NCBI GenBank assembly: GCA_025360125.1 | Contig: JANYCU010000051.1 | Span: forward strand, 1 to 64,000 | DNA length: 64,000 nt | Reading direction: 5' to 3' | From: Armatimonadota bacterium | Lineage (GTDB): Bacteria > Armatimonadota > Fimbriimonadia > Fimbriimonadales > Fimbriimonadaceae | Shown here: positions 21,242 through 30,662 of the stretch, in pieces | Position numbering within the stretch: the stretch's first letter is position 1 | How the letters are laid out: every line of letters starts with the position of its first letter | Made by a program: the position numbers and the translations under genes | The notes under the pieces: model-generated | The model's input: only the letters and a program-made list of their open reading frames with translations | What the model was told of the DNA's origin: nothing | The model's database searches: none

Positions 21242-21270
21242 GAAGGGCAGAATACCATTCGAACCGAAAT

Positions 21271-22341
21271 CTATCCGATCACCGCGCGAACTTCTTCCTT
21301 CCCTTTCTTATTCACTCGCCAAATATACGCATCCAAAACATAATGCGTGACCTGGGGCATCGTCAAGAGAGGAATCAAAACAACTAAAACCGCGTTCGTG
21401 GCATTCCAGTGGAACGAACCAAATATCCCCGCATGCTCACGCCAAACAAACCAGTCCCAAATACCTTCTTCAAAGTAAGCAAGTACGACGAGCGCAAGAA
21501 TATAAAACGGCACATATTTCAGCTGAAAGAATTTCAAGAACCGATTTTCAGAGTGAGCACTGTTCGATCGCTTCCGATATTGGTAGATCCAGATTAGAGC
21601 CATGTACGGGATCCCGTGCGAAATGATGTTGATCAGCGAAAACGTCAAGTCTCCGTTGAAAAGAATAATTCCAGTTCCCCACGCGGCCGCCGTCGCGAAG
21701 AGCAGCAAACACTTCCCTACATTCAGCGACCCGGTCACTCGCCATCGATTGAGCTCCCTCACCAAAAATGCACCAAGCGCCAGGACATAAACTGCTCGAC
21801 AAATGTACTCCGGCCAAACCCATGGAATCCGAATAACTTCAAATTCGCTAAACCACTGAAAGTTGCGGGAATAAGTGTGCCAATATACCAACGGATAGAC
21901 GGTCGCTATGTAGATTGCCAACTGATCTAATCGGTATCCAAGGTCTCCCACGGGCTCACCCCGGCGATACAGCATCAAAAACCCGTACTGTTGCCTCACG
22001 AAGTGATAGATAGCAAAATAGGCAACGCACGACCAAAAAACCACCGGACCCAGGATCGCGTAAATTCCAATCCCTCCGAGCCAAGTCACCGTCGGCACAA
22101 TCAAATAAAGCGATTTTCGACGCTTGAACTCTTCTCGGTCAAAGTAGGTTCGAAAAAGTGAGCTGTACACGTGGGCGACGTCAATAAAAAGAACCAGAAA
22201 CACCCACAACCACGGCGGGGTATCGAGTTTCGCAAGCTTGTTACCCCACGCAAGCACGATCGCCGTGATGACAACGGGCGGACCGATGATTGCCGCGAGG
22301 TCAAACTTCGAAGAGTAAATCCAGGGAGTGGCGACTCGCAT
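21271..22341 (-). CDS. Polytopic membrane protein with conserved-looking histidines
   Basis: A 356-residue integral membrane protein with about nine hydrophobic segments. Histidines sit inside or next to them in a regular way: FIDVAHVYSSLF, FAIYHFVRQQYGF, INIISHGIPYMALIW and PQVTHYVLDAYIWRV. This spacing recalls membrane carotenoid oxygenases of the Brp/Blh type or other di-iron membrane enzymes, but the similarity is a pattern judged by eye. Its ATG abuts the stop codon of the GyrI-like gene, so the two are probably co-transcribed. Confidence 0.65.
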   Translation of the reverse strand: MRVATPWIYSSKFDLAAIIGPPVVITAIVLAWGNKLAKLDTPPWLWVFLVLFIDVAHVYSSLFRTYFDREEFKRRKSLYLIVPTVTWLGGIGIYAILGPVVFWSCVAYFAIYHFVRQQYGFLMLYRRGEPVGDLGYRLDQLAIYIATVYPLVYWHTYSRNFQWFSEFEVIRIPWVWPEYICRAVYVLALGAFLVRELNRWRVTGSLNVGKCLLLFATAAAWGTGIILFNGDLTFSLINIISHGIPYMALIWIYQYRKRSNSAHSENRFLKFFQLKYVPFYILALVVLAYFEEGIWDWFVWREHAGIFGSFHWNATNAVLVVLIPLLTMPQVTHYVLDAYIWRVNKKGKEEVRAVIG

Positions 22342-22809
22342 TTAAGCCAATGGCATGAACAAATCGGTGATGAGTTGCGATGGTGGAGTATCGCTCGGAT
22401 CGTTGACGTAAACCTCAAAAGCCGGGTTCTCGCTGATCGCTCTTCGCAATGTTTGCTCAACATATGAAGTGAGTTCTCCCCAAACAGGGCCAAGGTTCTC
22501 GTAAGGTCCCACATATCGAGTTGTGGCGTAGTCACCCGGCGCTAACTGATCCAAAATGAGGCTCAAACCTCCACTGTCAGTGATCTGATAGCTATCAGGA
22601 ATCTCAACGCACGCTGCTGATCTTAGTTTCTCGGTCGGAACTTCGTCTGGGTTGTCCCAGTAGATGCCGATCGTTCGCTGGACTGGCACATTGTGAGATG
22701 AAACCCAAGTCCAAAGCTTGTCAAATACGTCGCCAATTCCGTCATAGGAACCTGTGTGGCGAAGCATGACGATTCGAGCAGCAGGGAGATTATTGACCTG
22801 GATGTTCAT
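22342..22809 (-). CDS. GyrI-like small-molecule-binding protein
   Basis: A 155-residue stand-alone effector-binding domain of the SbmC/GyrI superfamily, the domain that binds drugs in BmrR, Rob and MarA-type regulators: RIVMLRHTGSYDGIGDVFDK, GIYWDNPDEVPTEKLRSAAC and APGDYATTRYVGPYENLGPV. No DNA-binding part is present. Relatives have been reported to bind or hydrolyse small hydrophobic toxins. Downstream by zero bases is the polytopic membrane protein. Confidence 0.85.
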   Translation of the reverse strand: MNIQVNNLPAARIVMLRHTGSYDGIGDVFDKLWTWVSSHNVPVQRTIGIYWDNPDEVPTEKLRSAACVEIPDSYQITDSGGLSLILDQLAPGDYATTRYVGPYENLGPVWGELTSYVEQTLRRAISENPAFEVYVNDPSDTPPSQLITDLFMPLA

Positions 22810-22842
22810 GTTGAATATGTTATCTCATCGCAATGTTCTGAA

Positions 22843-23394
22843 TCACATCGTGGCAAGTAAATTGGCGGTAGACATGACTTCGGCAAACTCGTTGTGGAGG
22901 CTCGCCAGCGCAAGGTCATGCATTTCATCTCCCGAATAATGCTTGCCATTCGGCCCCGTTCGATCAAACGTTGCCGTTGCATCCGAAACCAACTTCACTC
23001 CAAATCCGAAGTTTGCCGCCATTCTGGTGGTCGTCGAAACACAATGGTCAGTTGTTAACCCGACAATGACCAAATCAGTAATTCCGCGGTCTCTCAGCTC
23101 GCTCTCGAGATTGGTACCGATGAACCCGCTATTCACCCGCTTTTGAAAGACTGACTCACCTGCAATTGGTGCAAATTCCGGCTTTACAGAGCTGCCTGGA
23201 TGATTGGGGTGCAACGGAGAGATTTCATTTTGTGAGTGATGATGAACGTGAATGATAGGCCAACCTTTGGCGCGCCACTTGGCTAACAATTTCGAAATAT
23301 TTTCTTCCGCCCCTGGGTTATTTCTCACTCCCCAATACGGTTCGTCAAATCCAATTTGGAGATCAATGAGAATCAGTGCTGGTGCTTTCGTCAT
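22843..23394 (-). CDS. Isochorismatase-family cysteine hydrolase
   Basis: A 183-residue hydrolase of the isochorismatase/nicotinamidase superfamily. The triad is clear: Asp11 in LILIDLQIGF, Lys85 in FQKRVNSGF, and Cys118 in GLTTDHCVSTT, with the adjacent cis-peptide TTDHC pattern. The substrate may be an amide or an isochorismate-like ether; the active-site loops do not decide. The start at 23394 is supported by GAAGG nine bases upstream. The longer frame to 23436 lies inside the neighbouring gene. Seven bases separate it from the DUF1801 gene upstream, so they form an operon. Confidence 0.88.
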   Translation of the reverse strand: MTKAPALILIDLQIGFDEPYWGVRNNPGAEENISKLLAKWRAKGWPIIHVHHHSQNEISPLHPNHPGSSVKPEFAPIAGESVFQKRVNSGFIGTNLESELRDRGITDLVIVGLTTDHCVSTTTRMAANFGFGVKLVSDATATFDRTGPNGKHYSGDEMHDLALASLHNEFAEVMSTANLLATM

Positions 23395-23401
23395 GTTTTG
23401 T

Positions 23402-23836
23402 CTACCTTCTTTTTGGCCCTTCGTACACCTTGACAATTTTTTTGAACTCTTCGAAAACCTCGGGTTTAGCGGCTTTTGCTGATGCTTCGTGGATCAACGT
23501 TTCGATGTAAGGATCATTCAATATTTCTGGAGGCACCAATCGGAAATGTCGCACCTGCTTTCCTTCGCCCTTTAGTCGTTTTTCGGGGTCGCTTAGCTCA
23601 ACACCCCACGGGAAAACGAGGGTGACATGCTTCGGATAAACCGCGATGTTGACAAAGGCTTCTTGCCACTTCGAAGTGTAGCCGTACGCAACACAGACTG
23701 CACTCGTCGCGTCGAACACGAACTCGTTTGCTGGCCCAACAATCTTAGCCAACCGAACACCGGATTCGAGCGCAATCTTCTGAACGTCCGGATTGTATGC
23801 AGCTAAAAACCCTTCCAGTTCTACAGTATCGAACAT
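23402..23836 (-). CDS. DUF1801-like protein
   Basis: A 144-residue protein distantly like DUF1801: VRLAKIVGPANEFVFDATSA, WQEAFVNIAVYPKHVTLVFP and the C-terminal EVFEEFKKIVKVYEGPKRR. It is transcribed with the isochorismatase gene. The function is unknown. Confidence 0.65.
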   Translation of the reverse strand: MFDTVELEGFLAAYNPDVQKIALESGVRLAKIVGPANEFVFDATSAVCVAYGYTSKWQEAFVNIAVYPKHVTLVFPWGVELSDPEKRLKGEGKQVRHFRLVPPEILNDPYIETLIHEASAKAAKPEVFEEFKKIVKVYEGPKRR

Positions 23837-23893
23837 GATTTCGCAATGTTACCACCTGGTTCCAAAGTCTCTCAAACTTAACCAAGACTCATA

Positions 23894-23928
23894 AATGGCT
23901 CTAGACTCTTTCGGGTCCAGAGCCATTT
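23894..23928 (-). terminator. Terminator after the tandem VOC gene
   Basis: The inverted repeat AAATGGCTCT ... AGAGCCATTT with a 15-base loop lies eight bases past the stop codon of the minus-strand gene ending at 23936. Confidence 0.7.
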
Positions 23929-23935
23929 TATTCCC

Positions 23936-24706
23936 CTACATTGTTGGCGGTTGGTGCAGACCGAAAACTGCTCCACAACAGTCAGCGGCGATCGCGATTC
24001 GTCCAAATTGACCAATATCCATCGGGGGGCTCATAACTTGTCCACCAGCCACTATGACCTTGTTGCAAGTTGCTTCTAAATCGTCAGAGTGCAAATAAAT
24101 CAACCAATTTGGCGGCATCTGGCCCCCGCCAACTGTCATACAACCAGCGACTGGAGTCTCTCCAGCAAGAAACATTGAATAAGTTCCGACTGGCTCGCCC
24201 ATTTCCATATCCATCGAGCCCCATCCGAAAAGCGACGTGTAAAACTTTACGGCACATTCGCGATTTGGACCCATGTGCTCGACCCAATTGACGGCGCCCT
24301 TGGAGATATCCTGGCGCTGACCCGAAGGCTGGTGCACATTAAAATGCGCTCCACAGCAGTCGGTGAACCCGGCAACTGTGCCAATATCAGGAATATCCAT
24401 TGGCCCGTAAACCACCGTCGCACCAAGTTCGGCTGCTTTGGCAATCGTGGCAGCGCAATCGTCCGTATGAAGGTACAGACCCCAATGTGGGGGCACTCCC
24501 TCCAAATTTGGATGATTGAGATCCATGACTCCAGCGAAGGTCGTCTCGCCACTCTTGAGCATCCAATAAGTCATATCTGGGCCCATGGGCATCGGTTCTT
24601 TGCTCCAACCAAAGACGGAAGTGTAAAAATTGATCGCTGATTCGGTATTGGGGCTGTAAACCTCGAACCAATTGGTGATTGATGTTGGCATCGCTTCTGA
24701 ACTCAT
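23936..24706 (-). CDS. Two-domain VOC protein (glyoxalase-fold)
   Basis: A 256-residue protein with two VOC domains in tandem (about 8-125 and 135-255). Each domain has the same ordered motifs: NWFEVYSPNTESAINFYTSV and NWVEHMGPNRECAVKFYTSL, GETTFAGVM and GETPVAGCM, PPHWGLYLHTDDC and PPNWLIYLHSDDL, and TDCCGAHFNVHQP and ADCCGAVFGLHQP. It is the architecture of CFP-30B-like hydrolases. The metal-binding His/Glu residues are likely kept, but the substrate is unknown. Confidence 0.88.
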   Translation of the reverse strand: MSSEAMPTSITNWFEVYSPNTESAINFYTSVFGWSKEPMPMGPDMTYWMLKSGETTFAGVMDLNHPNLEGVPPHWGLYLHTDDCAATIAKAAELGATVVYGPMDIPDIGTVAGFTDCCGAHFNVHQPSGQRQDISKGAVNWVEHMGPNRECAVKFYTSLFGWGSMDMEMGEPVGTYSMFLAGETPVAGCMTVGGGQMPPNWLIYLHSDDLEATCNKVIVAGGQVMSPPMDIGQFGRIAIAADCCGAVFGLHQPPTM

Positions 24707-24750
24707 TTTCTTATCCTCGCACGAGCGCGTTCTATGGTGCTCCTATTTTA

Positions 24751-25743
24751 CTAAATTCGTTTGAAAGAAGTTCCAAACTTGATGGCCGCCTGATCAAGAG
24801 ATTGTCGGATAGCCTCGTGGCGAACAACATCGTGGGGTGAGCGCCGTTGGTTATCAAGGCTGAAGGGGTTTGCACCTCGGTTTAGCAAAAGGTTCACCAT
24901 TGGTTCTTGGCCACAATTGACGGCTCGGCGAAGAGGAGTTTCTCCTTTTGAGTCTCTTATTTCAATGTCTGCACCTGCGCCGATTAAAACTTCAGCCAAG
25001 AACACATGGCCTCTTCGCGCCGTCATGTGGAGTGGCGTAGACTTTCCTGGCCCGCTTGGCTTATTGATATCTGCTCCGAATAAAATGAGGAGCTGAACGG
25101 TTTGTTTTCCAGCCTCGTCTGGACCTGCAATGCTGGAATTCACGGCTCGATACAAAGGTCCGTGGCCAAGAAGTTCTTCCGAGTTAGGGTCAGAGCCTGC
25201 CTCTAGCAGAAGCTTTGCCCGGGGTGCATCCCAATGACTCACAGCATCCCTTAAGAGACTATGTCCGGCTGGAGAAACTTCAAGAAGGCTCGGATCCGCA
25301 ATGATCTTGGCCTTTAACTTTTCAAGGGGCAATCGATAAAGCGGTAAAAACGGGTCAGTGAGCGATTTAGCGGTCTCGACGAAGTGCTCACGAAGTTGTT
25401 GACGGGCAGGTTCATCAATTCCAACATCGTCAATTGCCCCAAACATATGACCGAGCCATCGATCTGCTTCGTCAGTCGAGATCGAGAGGTGAGCATGACG
25501 ACAAATAAGGCTTTGCTTCCCTCGCTTTGTCGTATAGTCAGCCGGACCACCCATCCGCTCACATAGAAACATCGCGAAATGCTCGCTGAGGCGGGTCATG
25601 TCCTTAGGGAATATTTCCCGTAACCGAGAATCCTGCTCGACCCGCATATGGAATTGGTGAGACAATCGCTGACACGCTTCAAGACCACCAACCGCGTCGA
25701 TGACGCCACTCAAAATCGTCGAATCCGTTTTCGATTTCCGCAT
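24751..25743 (-). CDS. Truncated haemoglobin fused to ankyrin repeats
   Basis: A 330-residue protein in two parts. Residues about 12-130 form a group II (trHbO-like) truncated globin: FPKDMTRLSEHFAMFLCE, MGGPADYTTKRGK, and LICRHAHLSISTDEADRWL, with His83 as the probable haem ligand and Trp96 at the position conserved in group II. Residues about 145-330 carry four ankyrin repeats (GHSLLRDAVSHWDAPRAKLL; GPLYRAVNSS; STPLHMTARRGHVFLAEVLI; GETPLRRAVNCGQEPMVNLL). Globins of this group bind oxygen or nitric oxide; ankyrin repeats bind proteins. The combination suggests a haem sensor or a tethered globin. It stands alone 44 bases from the M1 peptidase gene. Confidence 0.88.
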   Translation of the reverse strand: MRKSKTDSTILSGVIDAVGGLEACQRLSHQFHMRVEQDSRLREIFPKDMTRLSEHFAMFLCERMGGPADYTTKRGKQSLICRHAHLSISTDEADRWLGHMFGAIDDVGIDEPARQQLREHFVETAKSLTDPFLPLYRLPLEKLKAKIIADPSLLEVSPAGHSLLRDAVSHWDAPRAKLLLEAGSDPNSEELLGHGPLYRAVNSSIAGPDEAGKQTVQLLILFGADINKPSGPGKSTPLHMTARRGHVFLAEVLIGAGADIEIRDSKGETPLRRAVNCGQEPMVNLLLNRGANPFSLDNQRRSPHDVVRHEAIRQSLDQAAIKFGTSFKRI

Positions 25744-25786
25744 GGCTTTAACTCTTTACGACTTCCCTAGAGCATTAGCTAAGCTT

Positions 25787-27397
25787 CTATTGCCTCATGA
25801 CCCAACCCTTCGGATCAATGACCGGTTCTGCACCCGTAAACGGCACCGTTCCTTTGCCACCAGTCATTGGAACCCGGATCGTTTTGCCATCAACCACGAC
25901 GTCGATCGGCATCGCAAAAGGAAGATTATCAGGTGTGATCCATTCCAATTTAAGCACTCCGTTCGATGATTCAGACTTCAACATCGGAAGTTTGGCTTGC
26001 CGAATATACACTTCAAAGAACCAGCGAAGGTCCTGCTTTGACTCGCGAGAAGCGACAGAAACATAGTCGTCGGTCGTGACGATACGCTGAGCCCGACCAT
26101 CAGCCCACTTCTCCGATTCGGGAGTAAGATACGCCATCCTTCGAATTGACCGAAGAAAGGCGTCATCACCAATAAGGTAGCGCAAAGCATGAAGAGTCAG
26201 AGCGCCTTTATCGTAGATGTCGCCACCATATGCTTCGCTGGAAGTTTGTTCTCGCGGGGCAACTGGAGCCTTATTGGTGACACTGCGCCGTCGACCTTTC
26301 ATCGCCGTAAAGTACGCATCCTTGCCTCTAATCTGTTCGATGTAAAAGGTATCCATAAAGCTCTGGAATCCTTCGTGTATCCACATGTCTCGCCAGTCAT
26401 TATTTGAAACAAGGTTTGCCCACCATTCATGGCCGAACTCGTGCAATAGGAGCCAATCAAGCCCGTCGGCGGCGAAGCGAAACTTGTTGCCGTAAGCAAT
26501 GGACGTTGAGTGCTCCATGCCGAGGTGGGGAGAATCAACGATCCCAGCCTTTACCGCTCGAAATGGAAAAGGACCGCAGTACTTTTCCATGAATGCCATG
26601 TATTTCTTTTGCTCAGCGATGAGCTTTGGCGCTTTGTCTTTGTTTTCGGGCAGGACATAGTAATTGATTGGAATGGATTGACCTGCAACGGACTTGATGG
26701 AATCCGTAACTAATTCGTAGGGTGCCGCGTTAAACACGAGCGAATAGTTGTTGATCGGCAACGCCATATGCCACACGAAGGTCGAGGTCCTATCGCCGTT
26801 CCGTTCCTTTTTCTCTAACAATCCCGGCCCTACAGCAATCAATGGGTCTGGGACGGTGAGTCGCATTGTTGCGTGGTTGGCATGATCAGACGGATGGTCT
26901 TTGCAAGGAAAGAGGAGATCTGCCCCGGCCCCTTGGAGAGCGACCGAAATCCAATCTGCTCCGCTGGGGGTCTTTGACCACATGAATCCGCCATCCCACG
27001 GGGCATTTCTTGCAACATGGGGCGTGCCTGCATAAGTAACTTCGGTATGAATGGACTCACCAGGCTGCTTTGAAAGGGGGAAAAAGACTCGAATCGCACC
27101 TTTCAGCCGATCAAATCTCAGGGCATCCATTCCATCCGTTATTTTCGATACGTTGTACGGATCATCCAGGTCGAGCAAGATACTGATCGTGGGAATCACG
27201 ATCTTCGCGTCCATCATCGTCATCCCTGAGATTGTCTTCTTGGCGGGATCAACCTTGATGGATATATCGTAGGCCTGAACATCGAATGCAGCCTGCTCAA
27301 GCTTGAGCACCCCTCCGGAAATTTCGGTCTGCTGAAATGCGATCGCGGAAGCGAAGATAGATATCGTGGCGAACATGAGTGCAAGCAGTTTACGCAT
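25787..27397 (-). CDS. Secreted M1-family aminopeptidase
   Basis: A 536-residue exported zinc aminopeptidase (gluzincin family M1). The signal peptide covers the first ~21 residues. The zinc site is HEFGH at 319-323 with the third ligand Glu342 in DMWIHEGFQSFMDTFY. The exopeptidase motif GxMEN appears in altered form as HLGMEHSTSI (293-296), His for Asn. The family's N-terminal saddle and catalytic thermolysin-like domain are present; the long C-terminal helical domain of PepN is missing, as in short secreted members. It probably trims peptides in the periplasm. Confidence 0.88.
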   Translation of the reverse strand: MRKLLALMFATISIFASAIAFQQTEISGGVLKLEQAAFDVQAYDISIKVDPAKKTISGMTMMDAKIVIPTISILLDLDDPYNVSKITDGMDALRFDRLKGAIRVFFPLSKQPGESIHTEVTYAGTPHVARNAPWDGGFMWSKTPSGADWISVALQGAGADLLFPCKDHPSDHANHATMRLTVPDPLIAVGPGLLEKKERNGDRTSTFVWHMALPINNYSLVFNAAPYELVTDSIKSVAGQSIPINYYVLPENKDKAPKLIAEQKKYMAFMEKYCGPFPFRAVKAGIVDSPHLGMEHSTSIAYGNKFRFAADGLDWLLLHEFGHEWWANLVSNNDWRDMWIHEGFQSFMDTFYIEQIRGKDAYFTAMKGRRRSVTNKAPVAPREQTSSEAYGGDIYDKGALTLHALRYLIGDDAFLRSIRRMAYLTPESEKWADGRAQRIVTTDDYVSVASRESKQDLRWFFEVYIRQAKLPMLKSESSNGVLKLEWITPDNLPFAMPIDVVVDGKTIRVPMTGGKGTVPFTGAEPVIDPKGWVMRQ

Positions 27398-27493
27398 AAG
27401 GCGGGGAGTTAAGACAACTACATAACCCGAGCATTTGACACTATCAGGGACAAGAATTTGTATTTGTTAGTCAGAAATCGAATCCGTCACAAA

Positions 27494-27922
27494 TTAAAGT
27501 CGAGCGTCAAACGCGTTGGGGCGGTGGTTCATTGCGAATATTCCATGCAAGAGCATTTCGACAAAAAGGAATCCAAAGCCTCCTAGAAGAGGACTTGGCA
27601 TGGGTGGTAGCGATGGAGCAATTACATGGATCGTGTAAAACGCCGGAAAAATAATGACGAAACCCCACGCCCACCAATAAATCAGCCGAAGCGCAACCAG
27701 GATTGGTACCTTCGGCTTCAATCGCTTGCGAATCAAGTTGAGCCAGAGGAGCTCAATCCAGTGGCCGCCAACCGATGGCCACAACGCTCCCAACCCAATA
27801 GCAAAACCCATCCGAATGTTGTGAGTCGCAAAGCTTGCAACTACTCCAACAACGACCGCAATCGTCAAGGTTCGAGACAAGGTTACACGCAGCGGCTCGT
27901 CGATTTCTTCAAATTTGATCAT
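27494..27922 (-). CDS. Hypothetical small membrane protein
   Basis: A 142-residue protein with about four hydrophobic segments: TLTIAVVVGVVASFA, MGFAIGLGALWPSVGG, LRLIYWWAWGFVIIFPAFYTI, GGFGFLFVEMLLHGIFAM. I place the start at the ATG at 27922 (IKFEEIDEPLRVTLSRT), because the longer frame to 28033 overlaps the transsulfuration gene. It is not recognised. It lies downstream of, and on the same strand as, the PLP enzyme gene. Confidence 0.6.
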   Translation of the reverse strand: MIKFEEIDEPLRVTLSRTLTIAVVVGVVASFATHNIRMGFAIGLGALWPSVGGHWIELLWLNLIRKRLKPKVPILVALRLIYWWAWGFVIIFPAFYTIHVIAPSLPPMPSPLLGGFGFLFVEMLLHGIFAMNHRPNAFDARL

Positions 27923-27983
27923 ACATCTATGAGGACAGTACGCAGAGAGCCCGACATTCGCTGCAATCAAAACCGACTCAGGG

Positions 27984-29108
27984 TTATGAAGCGCGAAGAG
28001 ATTGATCCAAGTCAGCCCATATATCCTGGACATTCTCGATTCCCACGCTCAGGCGGAGAAGCGTGGGCGGCAAGTGCTCCTGCCCTGGAATGCATGCCCG
28101 TCGTTCAATGGTTGACTCGACTGCACCGAGACTCGTGGCATGTTGGATGAGCCGTACCCCCGTGCAAACGGCGTCAGCCACTTGAGCATCTCCTCGCACA
28201 TCGAATGATATGATTGTGCCATACCCCTTTAACTGGCGCGATGCTGCCTCATGAGTCGGATGGCTAGGTAGGCCGGGATACCGAGCTAGAGTGACATTTG
28301 GGTGATCGGAAAGATGCTCAGCCAAGATCATCGCACTTTCTTGACTCCTTTGAAGTCTTAATGCCAGGGTCCGCACTCCCCGAACAGCGAGAAACGTCTC
28401 GAGGGTGCCGGGAGTCGCGCCACCAAGATCTCTTGATCGCTTTAATGCTGCGAGCAGAGCGGGATTTCGAGCGGTGACGACACCACTGAGCAGGTCAGAG
28501 TGACCGCCGATGAACTTCGTCACGGATTGCACCGAGACATCAGCACCGAGGTCCAGTGGCCGTTGATTGAGGGGAGTGGCGAAGGTATTGTCCACACATA
28601 AAATTGCTCCGGGCTTCCGAGGTGCAGCGCAGATGATGTCCAGATCGCCGACAGTCAGCAACGGATTTGATGGCGATTCAAGCCAGATCAAATCGGCTTG
28701 CTCACACGCTTTGAGCCAAGATGCGGTGTCGGTTACACCTAAAGGATGGATTTTCCAGCGACCACGTTTTTGACCATCGAATGCGAGTGCCGCGACGCCT
28801 TGATAGCAGTCGTCAGGTAAGACAACGACCGAGCCCACGGAGAGTAAATCAAAGATCGCGGCAATGCCTGCCATCCCGGAAGCAAAGGCGAGCGACGAAC
28901 CCCCTTCGAGCCCACCAACGATTTCCTCAAGCGCTTCCCAACCGGGAGCCCCGTCGTTTCTCGTATAGGCACGCTGTCCTCCCCTCACAAAGTTTGATGC
29001 AGGAACTAGAGGCACATTCAGCGGCGAACCAGGCTGTCCATCCCGACCTGCCGATACTAGCCACGATTCAACTGAATTTGAGGCGTGGACCTTGCTTGCT
29101 TTCATCAT
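27984..29108 (-). CDS. PLP-dependent transsulfuration enzyme (cystathionine synthase/lyase type)
   Basis: A 374-residue member of the Cys/Met metabolism PLP-enzyme family (cystathionine gamma-synthase, gamma-lyase, O-acylhomoserine sulfhydrylase). PLP is bound by Lys198 in SVQSVTKFIGGHSDLLSG; Asp173 in CVDNTFATP stacks on the ring. The C-terminal FDVRGDAQVADAVC and LLRLSVGIENVQDIWADL follow the fold. Which reaction it catalyses cannot be settled from motifs. It stands divergently from the dienelactone-hydrolase-like gene, with 96 bases between. Confidence 0.88.
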   Translation of the reverse strand: MMKASKVHASNSVESWLVSAGRDGQPGSPLNVPLVPASNFVRGGQRAYTRNDGAPGWEALEEIVGGLEGGSSLAFASGMAGIAAIFDLLSVGSVVVLPDDCYQGVAALAFDGQKRGRWKIHPLGVTDTASWLKACEQADLIWLESPSNPLLTVGDLDIICAAPRKPGAILCVDNTFATPLNQRPLDLGADVSVQSVTKFIGGHSDLLSGVVTARNPALLAALKRSRDLGGATPGTLETFLAVRGVRTLALRLQRSQESAMILAEHLSDHPNVTLARYPGLPSHPTHEAASRQLKGYGTIISFDVRGDAQVADAVCTGVRLIQHATSLGAVESTIERRACIPGQEHLPPTLLRLSVGIENVQDIWADLDQSLRAS

Positions 29109-29204
29109 TGCCTAGTTTAGCTTGATCAGGTTAGATCGCTAAGGTCCGCCGACAATATCGAATTCTCGATTGCCTCAGGAGTCAAAGTGGGATAAAGTAG
29201 AAAT

Positions 29205-30062
29205 ATGTGCGATCAAGATCATTTTGAAGACGACAAACTTGAATTCGAGCGGCGAGGGCTCGTAACCCGAAGGCAATTTGGCGTGATAGTTGGAGCCGGG
29301 GTGGCGCTTTTGCTTCCAACCGTGGCCAACGCTGCGACGGTAACCGAATCGGAAGTAAACATTACGACCCCTGACGGAACAGCTGACGGCTATTTTGTGC
29401 ATCCGTCCACTGGCACGGCCCCAGCAGTTATTATTTGGCCGGACATCTTTGGCCTTCGACCAGCTTTCCGCGATATGGCTAAGCGGCTCGCGGAATCTGG
29501 CTATGCAGTCCTGGTCGTCAATCCTTTCTATCGCAAGCAAAAGGCTCCGACAGCGTCGAAAGGCAGCCAGACCCCAATCTCGGAATTAAGACCCCTGATG
29601 GCTGGCTTCAGCGATGTGACGGAAATGTCGGACGCCAAAGCTTTCGTCGCATGGTTGGATACCCAATCCTGCGTCAACAAGAAGAAAAAGATCGGCACTC
29701 AGGGTTATTGCATGGGCGGGCCGTTTGCATTTCGCACCGCTGCTGCGTCTGACCGGATCGGAGCTGTGGCCACGTTCCACGGGGGTGGGCTCGTCACCGA
29801 CCAACCTTCAAGCCCTCACCTCGGCGCCGCAAAGAGCAAGGCCCAGTTCCTCGTCGCAATCGCTTCTAACGATGACGCACGTTCGCCAAAAGACAAAGAC
29901 ACCCTGAAGGAAGCGTTCGCGAAAGCCGAGAGACCTGCCGAGATCGAAGTTTACGAGGGTGCCGCCCACGGCTGGTGTCCCCCAGATTCTTCCGTCTATA
30001 ACGAACCACAAGCCGAGAAAGCGTGGAAAAGGCTTCTCGCTCTTTACGGTAAAGCTCTGTAG
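29205..30062 (+). CDS. Dienelactone-hydrolase family protein, Tat-exported
   Basis: A 285-residue alpha/beta hydrolase of the dienelactone hydrolase family. Its catalytic Cys169 sits in QGYCMGGPFA, the acid probably in ASNDDARS, and His255 in EGAAHGW. The N-terminus has TRRQFGVIVGAG (residues 21-32), a twin-arginine signal, so it probably acts outside the cytoplasm, unusual for the classical chlorocatechol enzymes. Many exported relatives have no known substrate. A strong terminator follows. Confidence 0.85.
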   Translation: MCDQDHFEDDKLEFERRGLVTRRQFGVIVGAGVALLLPTVANAATVTESEVNITTPDGTADGYFVHPSTGTAPAVIIWPDIFGLRPAFRDMAKRLAESGYAVLVVNPFYRKQKAPTASKGSQTPISELRPLMAGFSDVTEMSDAKAFVAWLDTQSCVNKKKKIGTQGYCMGGPFAFRTAAASDRIGAVATFHGGGLVTDQPSSPHLGAAKSKAQFLVAIASNDDARSPKDKDTLKEAFAKAERPAEIEVYEGAAHGWCPPDSSVYNEPQAEKAWKRLLALYGKAL

Positions 30063-30082
30063 GAATTCGGGAGACAAAGTTT

Positions 30083-30112
30083 GCTGGCAGGTGGAAAATT
30101 CCACCTGCCAGC
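30083..30112 (+). terminator. Rho-independent terminator
   Basis: The perfect inverted repeat GCTGGCAGGTGGAA-AA-TTCCACCTGCCAGC, 14 bp with a two-base loop, is followed by TTTGCCTTT. It ends the dienelactone-hydrolase transcript. Confidence 0.85.
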
Positions 30113-30185
30113 TTTGCCTTTGGATGTAACATTCCTCAAAATCTCTGTCGATCTTGACCATGGTAAATCGACGAACGAGTGAATA

Positions 30186-30662
30186 ATGAATCCAGCAATT
30201 GAATTAGGCAAATTGACCGCCGTGCAGGGCATGGACATGTTTCTGCGGAACTTCTCAAAAGTGCCCGATGACAAGCTGACTTGGTCGCCGACTCCGACCT
30301 CCAAGTCGGCACTCCGCATCGCCGCACATGTGGCGGTGACAAATGCCAATTTCGCCGACTTCATCCGAAACCGCAAGCTTCCGACAGAAGACGAAGTGCC
30401 TGATTTCGTGGCTAGGACCACCGCTGCAGAACTTGCGATCACGAGCAAAGAAGAGATGGAGCGAGTGTTCCGCGAAAACACGCAGAAGGTACTCGATGCA
30501 CTCGACACATTAACCGACGAAGACCTCGATATTGTTTTCGGCTCCAGCCATATGTCGATGAAGTTCTTGACGAGATTGGCGGGTTGGCATGCGACCTTGC
30601 ACTTGGGTCAGATCGACTACTTACAAACCTGCTGGGACGATCAGCAAATCTACACGGGCTGA
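30186..30662 (+). CDS. DinB-family protein
   Basis: A 158-residue four-helix bundle of the DinB superfamily: AHVAVTNANFADFIRNRKLP, VFRENTQKVLDALDTLTDED and the C-terminal GWHATLHLGQIDYLQTCWDD with the third metal His. It is the third DinB-like gene of the window and not closely similar to the pair at 20.3-21.2 kb. Unknown substrate. It converges on the DUF899 gene with a shared terminator. Confidence 0.85.
   Translation: MNPAIELGKLTAVQGMDMFLRNFSKVPDDKLTWSPTPTSKSALRIAAHVAVTNANFADFIRNRKLPTEDEVPDFVARTTAAELAITSKEEMERVFRENTQKVLDALDTLTDEDLDIVFGSSHMSMKFLTRLAGWHATLHLGQIDYLQTCWDDQQIYTG

Follow-up and report, generated by a model that had tools for sequence, protein, structure and literature searches.

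The cellular roles of truncated globins are still largely open, because most of these proteins stand alone. The window analysed here, a stretch of 64,000 nucleotides from a soil-type bacterium of a Fimbriimonas-type genus (Armatimonadota), contains a gene that appears to join such a globin to ankyrin repeats. This raises the question of whether the fusion is genuine and, if so, what its haem pocket and its second domain are for. The gene lies on the minus strand at 24751..25743, exactly as the preliminary description had placed it, and both the frame and the two-part division given there are correct. It encodes 330 amino acids (stop codon included in the coordinates) from an ATG four codons past the previous in-frame stop, and an ORF check across this interval found no internal stop codons. 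In Pfam, residues 15-126 match Bac_globin (E 1.6e-24); five ankyrin models also exceed their cut-offs (best E 3.7e-18), several of them over residues 213-298. A whole-protein AlphaFold model based on an alignment of 46 fusions reaches a mean pLDDT of 91.7 and a pTM of 0.80, the latter being no proof of a fixed domain orientation. It lays out globin helices at 15-129, a junction at about 132-138 and ankyrin-type helical pairs up to residue 327. The Pfam matches, the uninterrupted ORF and the model thus bear out the earlier claim that globin and ankyrin array are both whole and share a single frame. An origin by chance or frameshift is rejected because the same two-domain ORF is found in 45 other non-redundant homologs; all 46 proteins, a set that is a lower bound (at least 46), match both Pfam families. 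NCBIfam and PADLOC provide no family name for the fusion, only weak ankyrin matches.

The fusions form two clades, type I, which includes the window protein, and type II. Eleven of the 20 genomes of the window genus carry a fusion, four of type I and seven of type II; the zero overlap between the types is not significant (p about 0.15), and mutual exclusion is therefore not claimed. Across the Armatimonadota, the fusion is complete or nearly so in 22 of 291 genomes, with 11 for each type; one further genome has the ankyrin half alone at a contig end, and two additional matches are stand-alone globins. All counts per phylum are lower bounds, because few candidates were scored in each genome. 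Type I was not found outside the Armatimonadota among the genomes searched. Type II extends to Eremiobacterota, to one Chloroflexi MAG and to many MAGs of the Acidobacteriota. The fusion is rare beyond the Armatimonadota: at least 2 of 149 sampled Eremiobacterota genomes contain it, and in a sample of 396 Acidobacteriota genomes it was found in the central genome alone, again a lower bound. A first contig search with the window protein as the only query returned no relative. The preliminary description had left it undecided whether the combination is recorded elsewhere; as a sequence it is, in at least three phyla, but without a known role. An occurrence in Pseudomonadota was rejected: the title of one MAG (G299) names Rhodanobacteraceae, which we distrust because phylum sampling around this genome returns the set drawn for an Acidobacteriota genome. 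In this MAG (L061/L112), the type II halves lie in two overlapping frames, so that either the gene is genuinely split or the assembly contains a frameshift. The viral contigs, phages and plasmids searched contain unrelated ankyrins only and no fusion, and an origin from these sources was rejected on this basis.

The phylogeny of the ankyrin part separates the fusions from other ankyrins as one clade (98/86), in which each type forms a clade of its own (99/92 for type I, 100/95 for type II). The globin tree likewise separates the types cleanly (100/96 for type I, 100/99 for type II), but their placement on one side of a branch, as sisters relative to the single-domain globins, has a support of 76/27, too little to decide between one origin and two. 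A single origin of both fusion types is favoured by the ankyrin tree over separate origins. Two stand-alone group II globins of 143-147 amino acids (L128 in G118, L145 in G115) have good scores against the type I fusion profile and are candidates for the unfused ancestor. Furthermore, purifying selection acts on both the globin and the ankyrin domains in the pairs tested: dN/dS (NG86) is about 0.10 and 0.11 for two type I pairs (L005/L006 and L005/L077) and 0.18-0.22 over the whole gene for three type II pairs. These pairs are relatives of the window gene, which is itself too divergent for a usable estimate.

What kind of globin is it? The domain (residues 12-131; 25351..25710, minus strand) is identified as a 2/2, group II-like truncated globin by Pfam, by PDB sequence matches, which are to group II truncated haemoglobins (E down to 4.7e-23), and by fold. 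The AlphaFold model of the isolated globin (pLDDT 86.3) matches 5d1v best (Z 19.0, rmsd 1.5 over 120 residues). The top 14 structural matches are all group II truncated haemoglobins, and 3/3 globin folds reach Z values of about 11 at most. Comparison of 75 globin domains, i.e. both fusion types and single-domain relatives, shows that the proximal F8 histidine is present in all of them. In the window protein it is H83, which settles a check called for in the preliminary description, and it lies within a CRHAH motif (residues 81-85; 25489..25503, minus strand) that is invariant in type I, including the flanking Cys81 and His85 (10/10 each). Trp96 at G8 (25456..25458, minus strand) is also invariant in 75/75 domains. 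Ser78 is common to both fusion types; single-domain globins have Arg, Lys or Met at this position.

The distal side is different. The PheB9-TyrB10 pair is common, not universal, in group II truncated haemoglobins; the window globin retains PheB9, and Tyr is replaced by His32 at B10 (25648..25650, minus strand), which aligns with the FY of 5d1v, 2bkm and 2bmm. Histidine occupies B10 in 10/10 type I domains; the single-domain relatives all have Tyr there (29/29), as do 34/36 type II domains. CD1 is Phe in 10/10 type I domains (Phe45; 25609..25611, minus strand) and mostly Tyr among single-domain globins. E7 is Leu in 9/10 type I domains (Leu52; 25588..25590, minus strand) and Ala in 36/36 of type II. 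Apart from the one exception at E7, this type I signature is fixed (10/10 rows) across four Armatimonadota families. In truncated globins generally, the ligand is set by B10, CD1, E7, E11 and G8, about 80% carry TyrB10, and a basic HPRLRxR stretch in the EF loop and F helix is typical of group II (PMC4720485). The window globin has GKQSLICRH instead of this stretch and retains only its Leu and last Arg. Because the stretch is absent, the protein should be called group II-like rather than a standard member: the group II assignment made earlier stands as the nearest class by sequence and fold, for a divergent globin that lacks both HPRLRxR and TyrB10. Type I would accordingly be a group II globin in its working, yet without two usual marks of the group. 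With the single-domain group II (O) globins of Chloroflexus (5d1v), Thermobifida (2bmm), Geobacillus (2bkm) and M. tuberculosis (HbO, 1ngk) it shares the 2/2 fold (Z 17-19), PheB9, the F8 His, the G8 Trp and a GG motif; it departs from them in the rebuilt distal and EF-loop positions just described and in being fused to ankyrin repeats. Shewanella benthica HbN was considered as a precedent for His B10 and rejected, the pocket histidine there being B13. In addition, contig C25 of the window genome contains, beyond the window (about 68200-71560; L002), an ORF of 289 aa that begins like a signal peptide and has two tandem globin-like halves (Bac_globin, 29.7 bits), the first seemingly without the usual F8 His; it is possibly a secreted double truncated globin.

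The ankyrin domain (residues 139-327; 24763..25329, minus strand) consists of a helical N-cap, four repeats and a C-cap according to Pfam, the AlphaFold model and the fold match (Z 24.1, rmsd 1.9 over 183 residues against solved and designed ankyrins). Its tandem 33-residue repeats show the TPLH...AA...LL..GA core. Contact positions are numbered as in designed ankyrins, a scheme that we take to apply here. The target-contact positions, normally variable in ankyrins, are nearly invariant over both fusion types: H194 at position 5 of repeat 2 (25162..25164; 45/46), N202 (39/45), R243-R244 at positions 13-14 of repeat 3 (25012..25017; 45/46 and 40/46) and N276-C277 at positions 13-14 of repeat 4 (24913..24918; 42/46 and 44/46), all on the minus strand. 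R273 at position 10 of repeat 4 (24925..24927, minus strand; 46/46) replaces the usual core Leu. As a control, 38 repeats were inspected from 15 ORFs of the phylum that encode unrelated ankyrins: their contact positions are variable, with many residues sharing the counts, and the Arg10/Asn13 pair does not occur in any of them. Scored against their own ankyrin profile, fusions reach 141-216 bits and other ankyrins of the phylum 41-74 bits. A contact surface that stays unchanged across phyla suggests that the groove binds a fixed ligand, and this ligand would probably be a partner protein; the groove could instead hold a segment of its own protein or a small molecule. The two domains are joined at residues 132-138 (25330..25350, minus strand), and D130, P131, Y136 and P139 in and around this junction are invariant in type I. 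Type II has an additional segment between the domains and therefore a different geometry.

The genomic neighbourhood was examined for such a partner. The gene had been described as isolated; this is wrong, since it is part of a minus-strand run between an upstream Peptidase_M1 gene (25787..27397, gap 43 bp) and a downstream gene for a glyoxalase-fold (VOC) protein (23936..24706, gap 44 bp); past VOC come DUF1801, isochorismatase and GyrI-like genes. Neither of the two gaps contains a minus-strand terminator-like site, and co-transcription with the Peptidase_M1 gene is possible. In the other carriers different genes adjoin the fusion, and a conserved operon partner was rejected: nothing recurs widely over 14 type I or single-globin regions and more than 30 type II loci. 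The neighbours are not conserved with the family and therefore do not identify the partner. One exception is G126 (L056/L120), from another genus of the family, where the same M1 gene precedes a fusion of type II; in G015 the M1 gene is present with no fusion behind it. The M1 site may be a long-standing location of the fusion gene, two cases being few. Several smaller observations concern the surroundings. In the interval 21270-30660 of the window, genes for small enzymes or binding proteins are clustered (GyrI-like, isochorismatase, DUF1801, VOC, DinB_2), DinB-like genes lie immediately downstream of type II fusions in G002 (L113) and G016 (L118), and DUF1905 adjoins fusions in G009 (type I), G003 and G016 (type II). 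In G068 (L103, 1-7075) candidate haem-biosynthesis genes, hemA/C/D/B/Y-like by eye, are located near a type I fusion on the opposite strand.

How would such a protein work? We lean, somewhat beyond an even call, towards a soluble haem-globin adaptor or sensor in which the conserved groove of the ankyrin arm would hold a single, likewise conserved partner protein; the haem sensor with a protein-binding arm that was proposed from the outset is still the best reading of the fusion. According to this model, the product would be a soluble two-domain globin-coupled adaptor. Its N-terminal 2/2 globin would bind haem b via His83 and would sense or chemically handle O2, NO, peroxide or redox state; the groove (H194, Y198, N202, R243, R244, R273, N276, C277) would bind the partner, and the short conserved junction would pass the state of the haem on to binding by the arm. 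With its rebuilt distal side, type I may be expected to have a weak six-coordinate His-Fe-His resting state, or to use His B10 as a hydrogen-bond donor in place of Tyr. The input chemistry would differ between types I and II, and the output would be partner binding. No catalytic second domain was found in the fusions, which together with the absence of a recurring operon partner fits a partner encoded elsewhere. A bolder version – a new class of globin-coupled sensor in which a His-B10, possibly bis-His, 2/2 globin switches the groove, while type II reads a different signal for the same partner across phyla – is a tentative idea that we consider rather unlikely.

The pocket could also serve catalysis rather than sensing. 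A haem enzyme, i.e. an NO dioxygenase or peroxidase, tethered by its arm to a reductase or client and taking no part in signalling, is conceivable, if on the improbable side: NO/O2 and peroxide reactions are a known activity of group II truncated globins (PMC4720485, PMC4319818), and a conserved groove without an effector domain would suit tethering equally well, but type I lacks TyrB10 and TyrCD1, common holders of bound ligand in the 2/2 fold (PMC4720485), and no reductase gene recurs beside the fusions. We regard as quite improbable a role in haem storage or transfer, or as a six-coordinate electron carrier, in which the B10 and F8 histidines clamp the iron and the arm docks a donor or acceptor. 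The constant His B10 of type I, with Cys81 and His85 beside the proximal His, would suit it, as would endogenous six-coordination in other truncated globins, though via E10 (PMC11904497); yet we found no precedent for ligation by B10, and type II, with the same arm, retains Tyr B10. That the groove contacts its own globin or drives oligomer formation, so that the arm would be structural, as the short, fixed type I junction with its four invariant residues might suggest, is very unlikely, given that type II keeps the same groove residues in its different geometry.

The adaptor or sensor reading has partial parallels among known systems. Globin-coupled sensors and flavohaemoglobins likewise combine an N-terminal globin with a C-terminal output or redox domain, but their globins are 3/3 and are joined to methyl-accepting, cyclase or flavin domains; the window protein has a 2/2 globin, not the 3/3 domain of the globin-coupled sensor lineage, and its ankyrin arm is non-catalytic. 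The chimeric globins described in a 2006 census are these two families, with 3/3 domains (PMC1457004), and some 2/2 globin fusions are known, e.g. the raphidophyte nitrate reductase cited in PMC3820574. LOV2-DARPin fusions (7tbn and others) also combine a sensor, a short junction and ankyrin repeats of closely similar structure; they are designed and light-sensing, unlike the natural, haem-type window protein. General bacterial ankyrin proteins, phage-borne and secreted effectors included, share the canonical fold and have no globin, and effector models match the fusion weakly, far under cut-off. A search of openly available papers found none that connects ankyrin repeats to a truncated globin of bacteria; the architecture may already be on record elsewhere, in subscription papers or database pages. 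Because the design recurs in several phyla and no description of it was found, the fusion is probably a little-known coupling of haem gas or redox chemistry to protein binding. For the truncated globins, a natural and selected fusion offers a handle: the binding target of the ankyrin arm would reveal the purpose of the haem, and the two sister classes, which share the arm and differ in the haem pocket, provide a built-in comparison.
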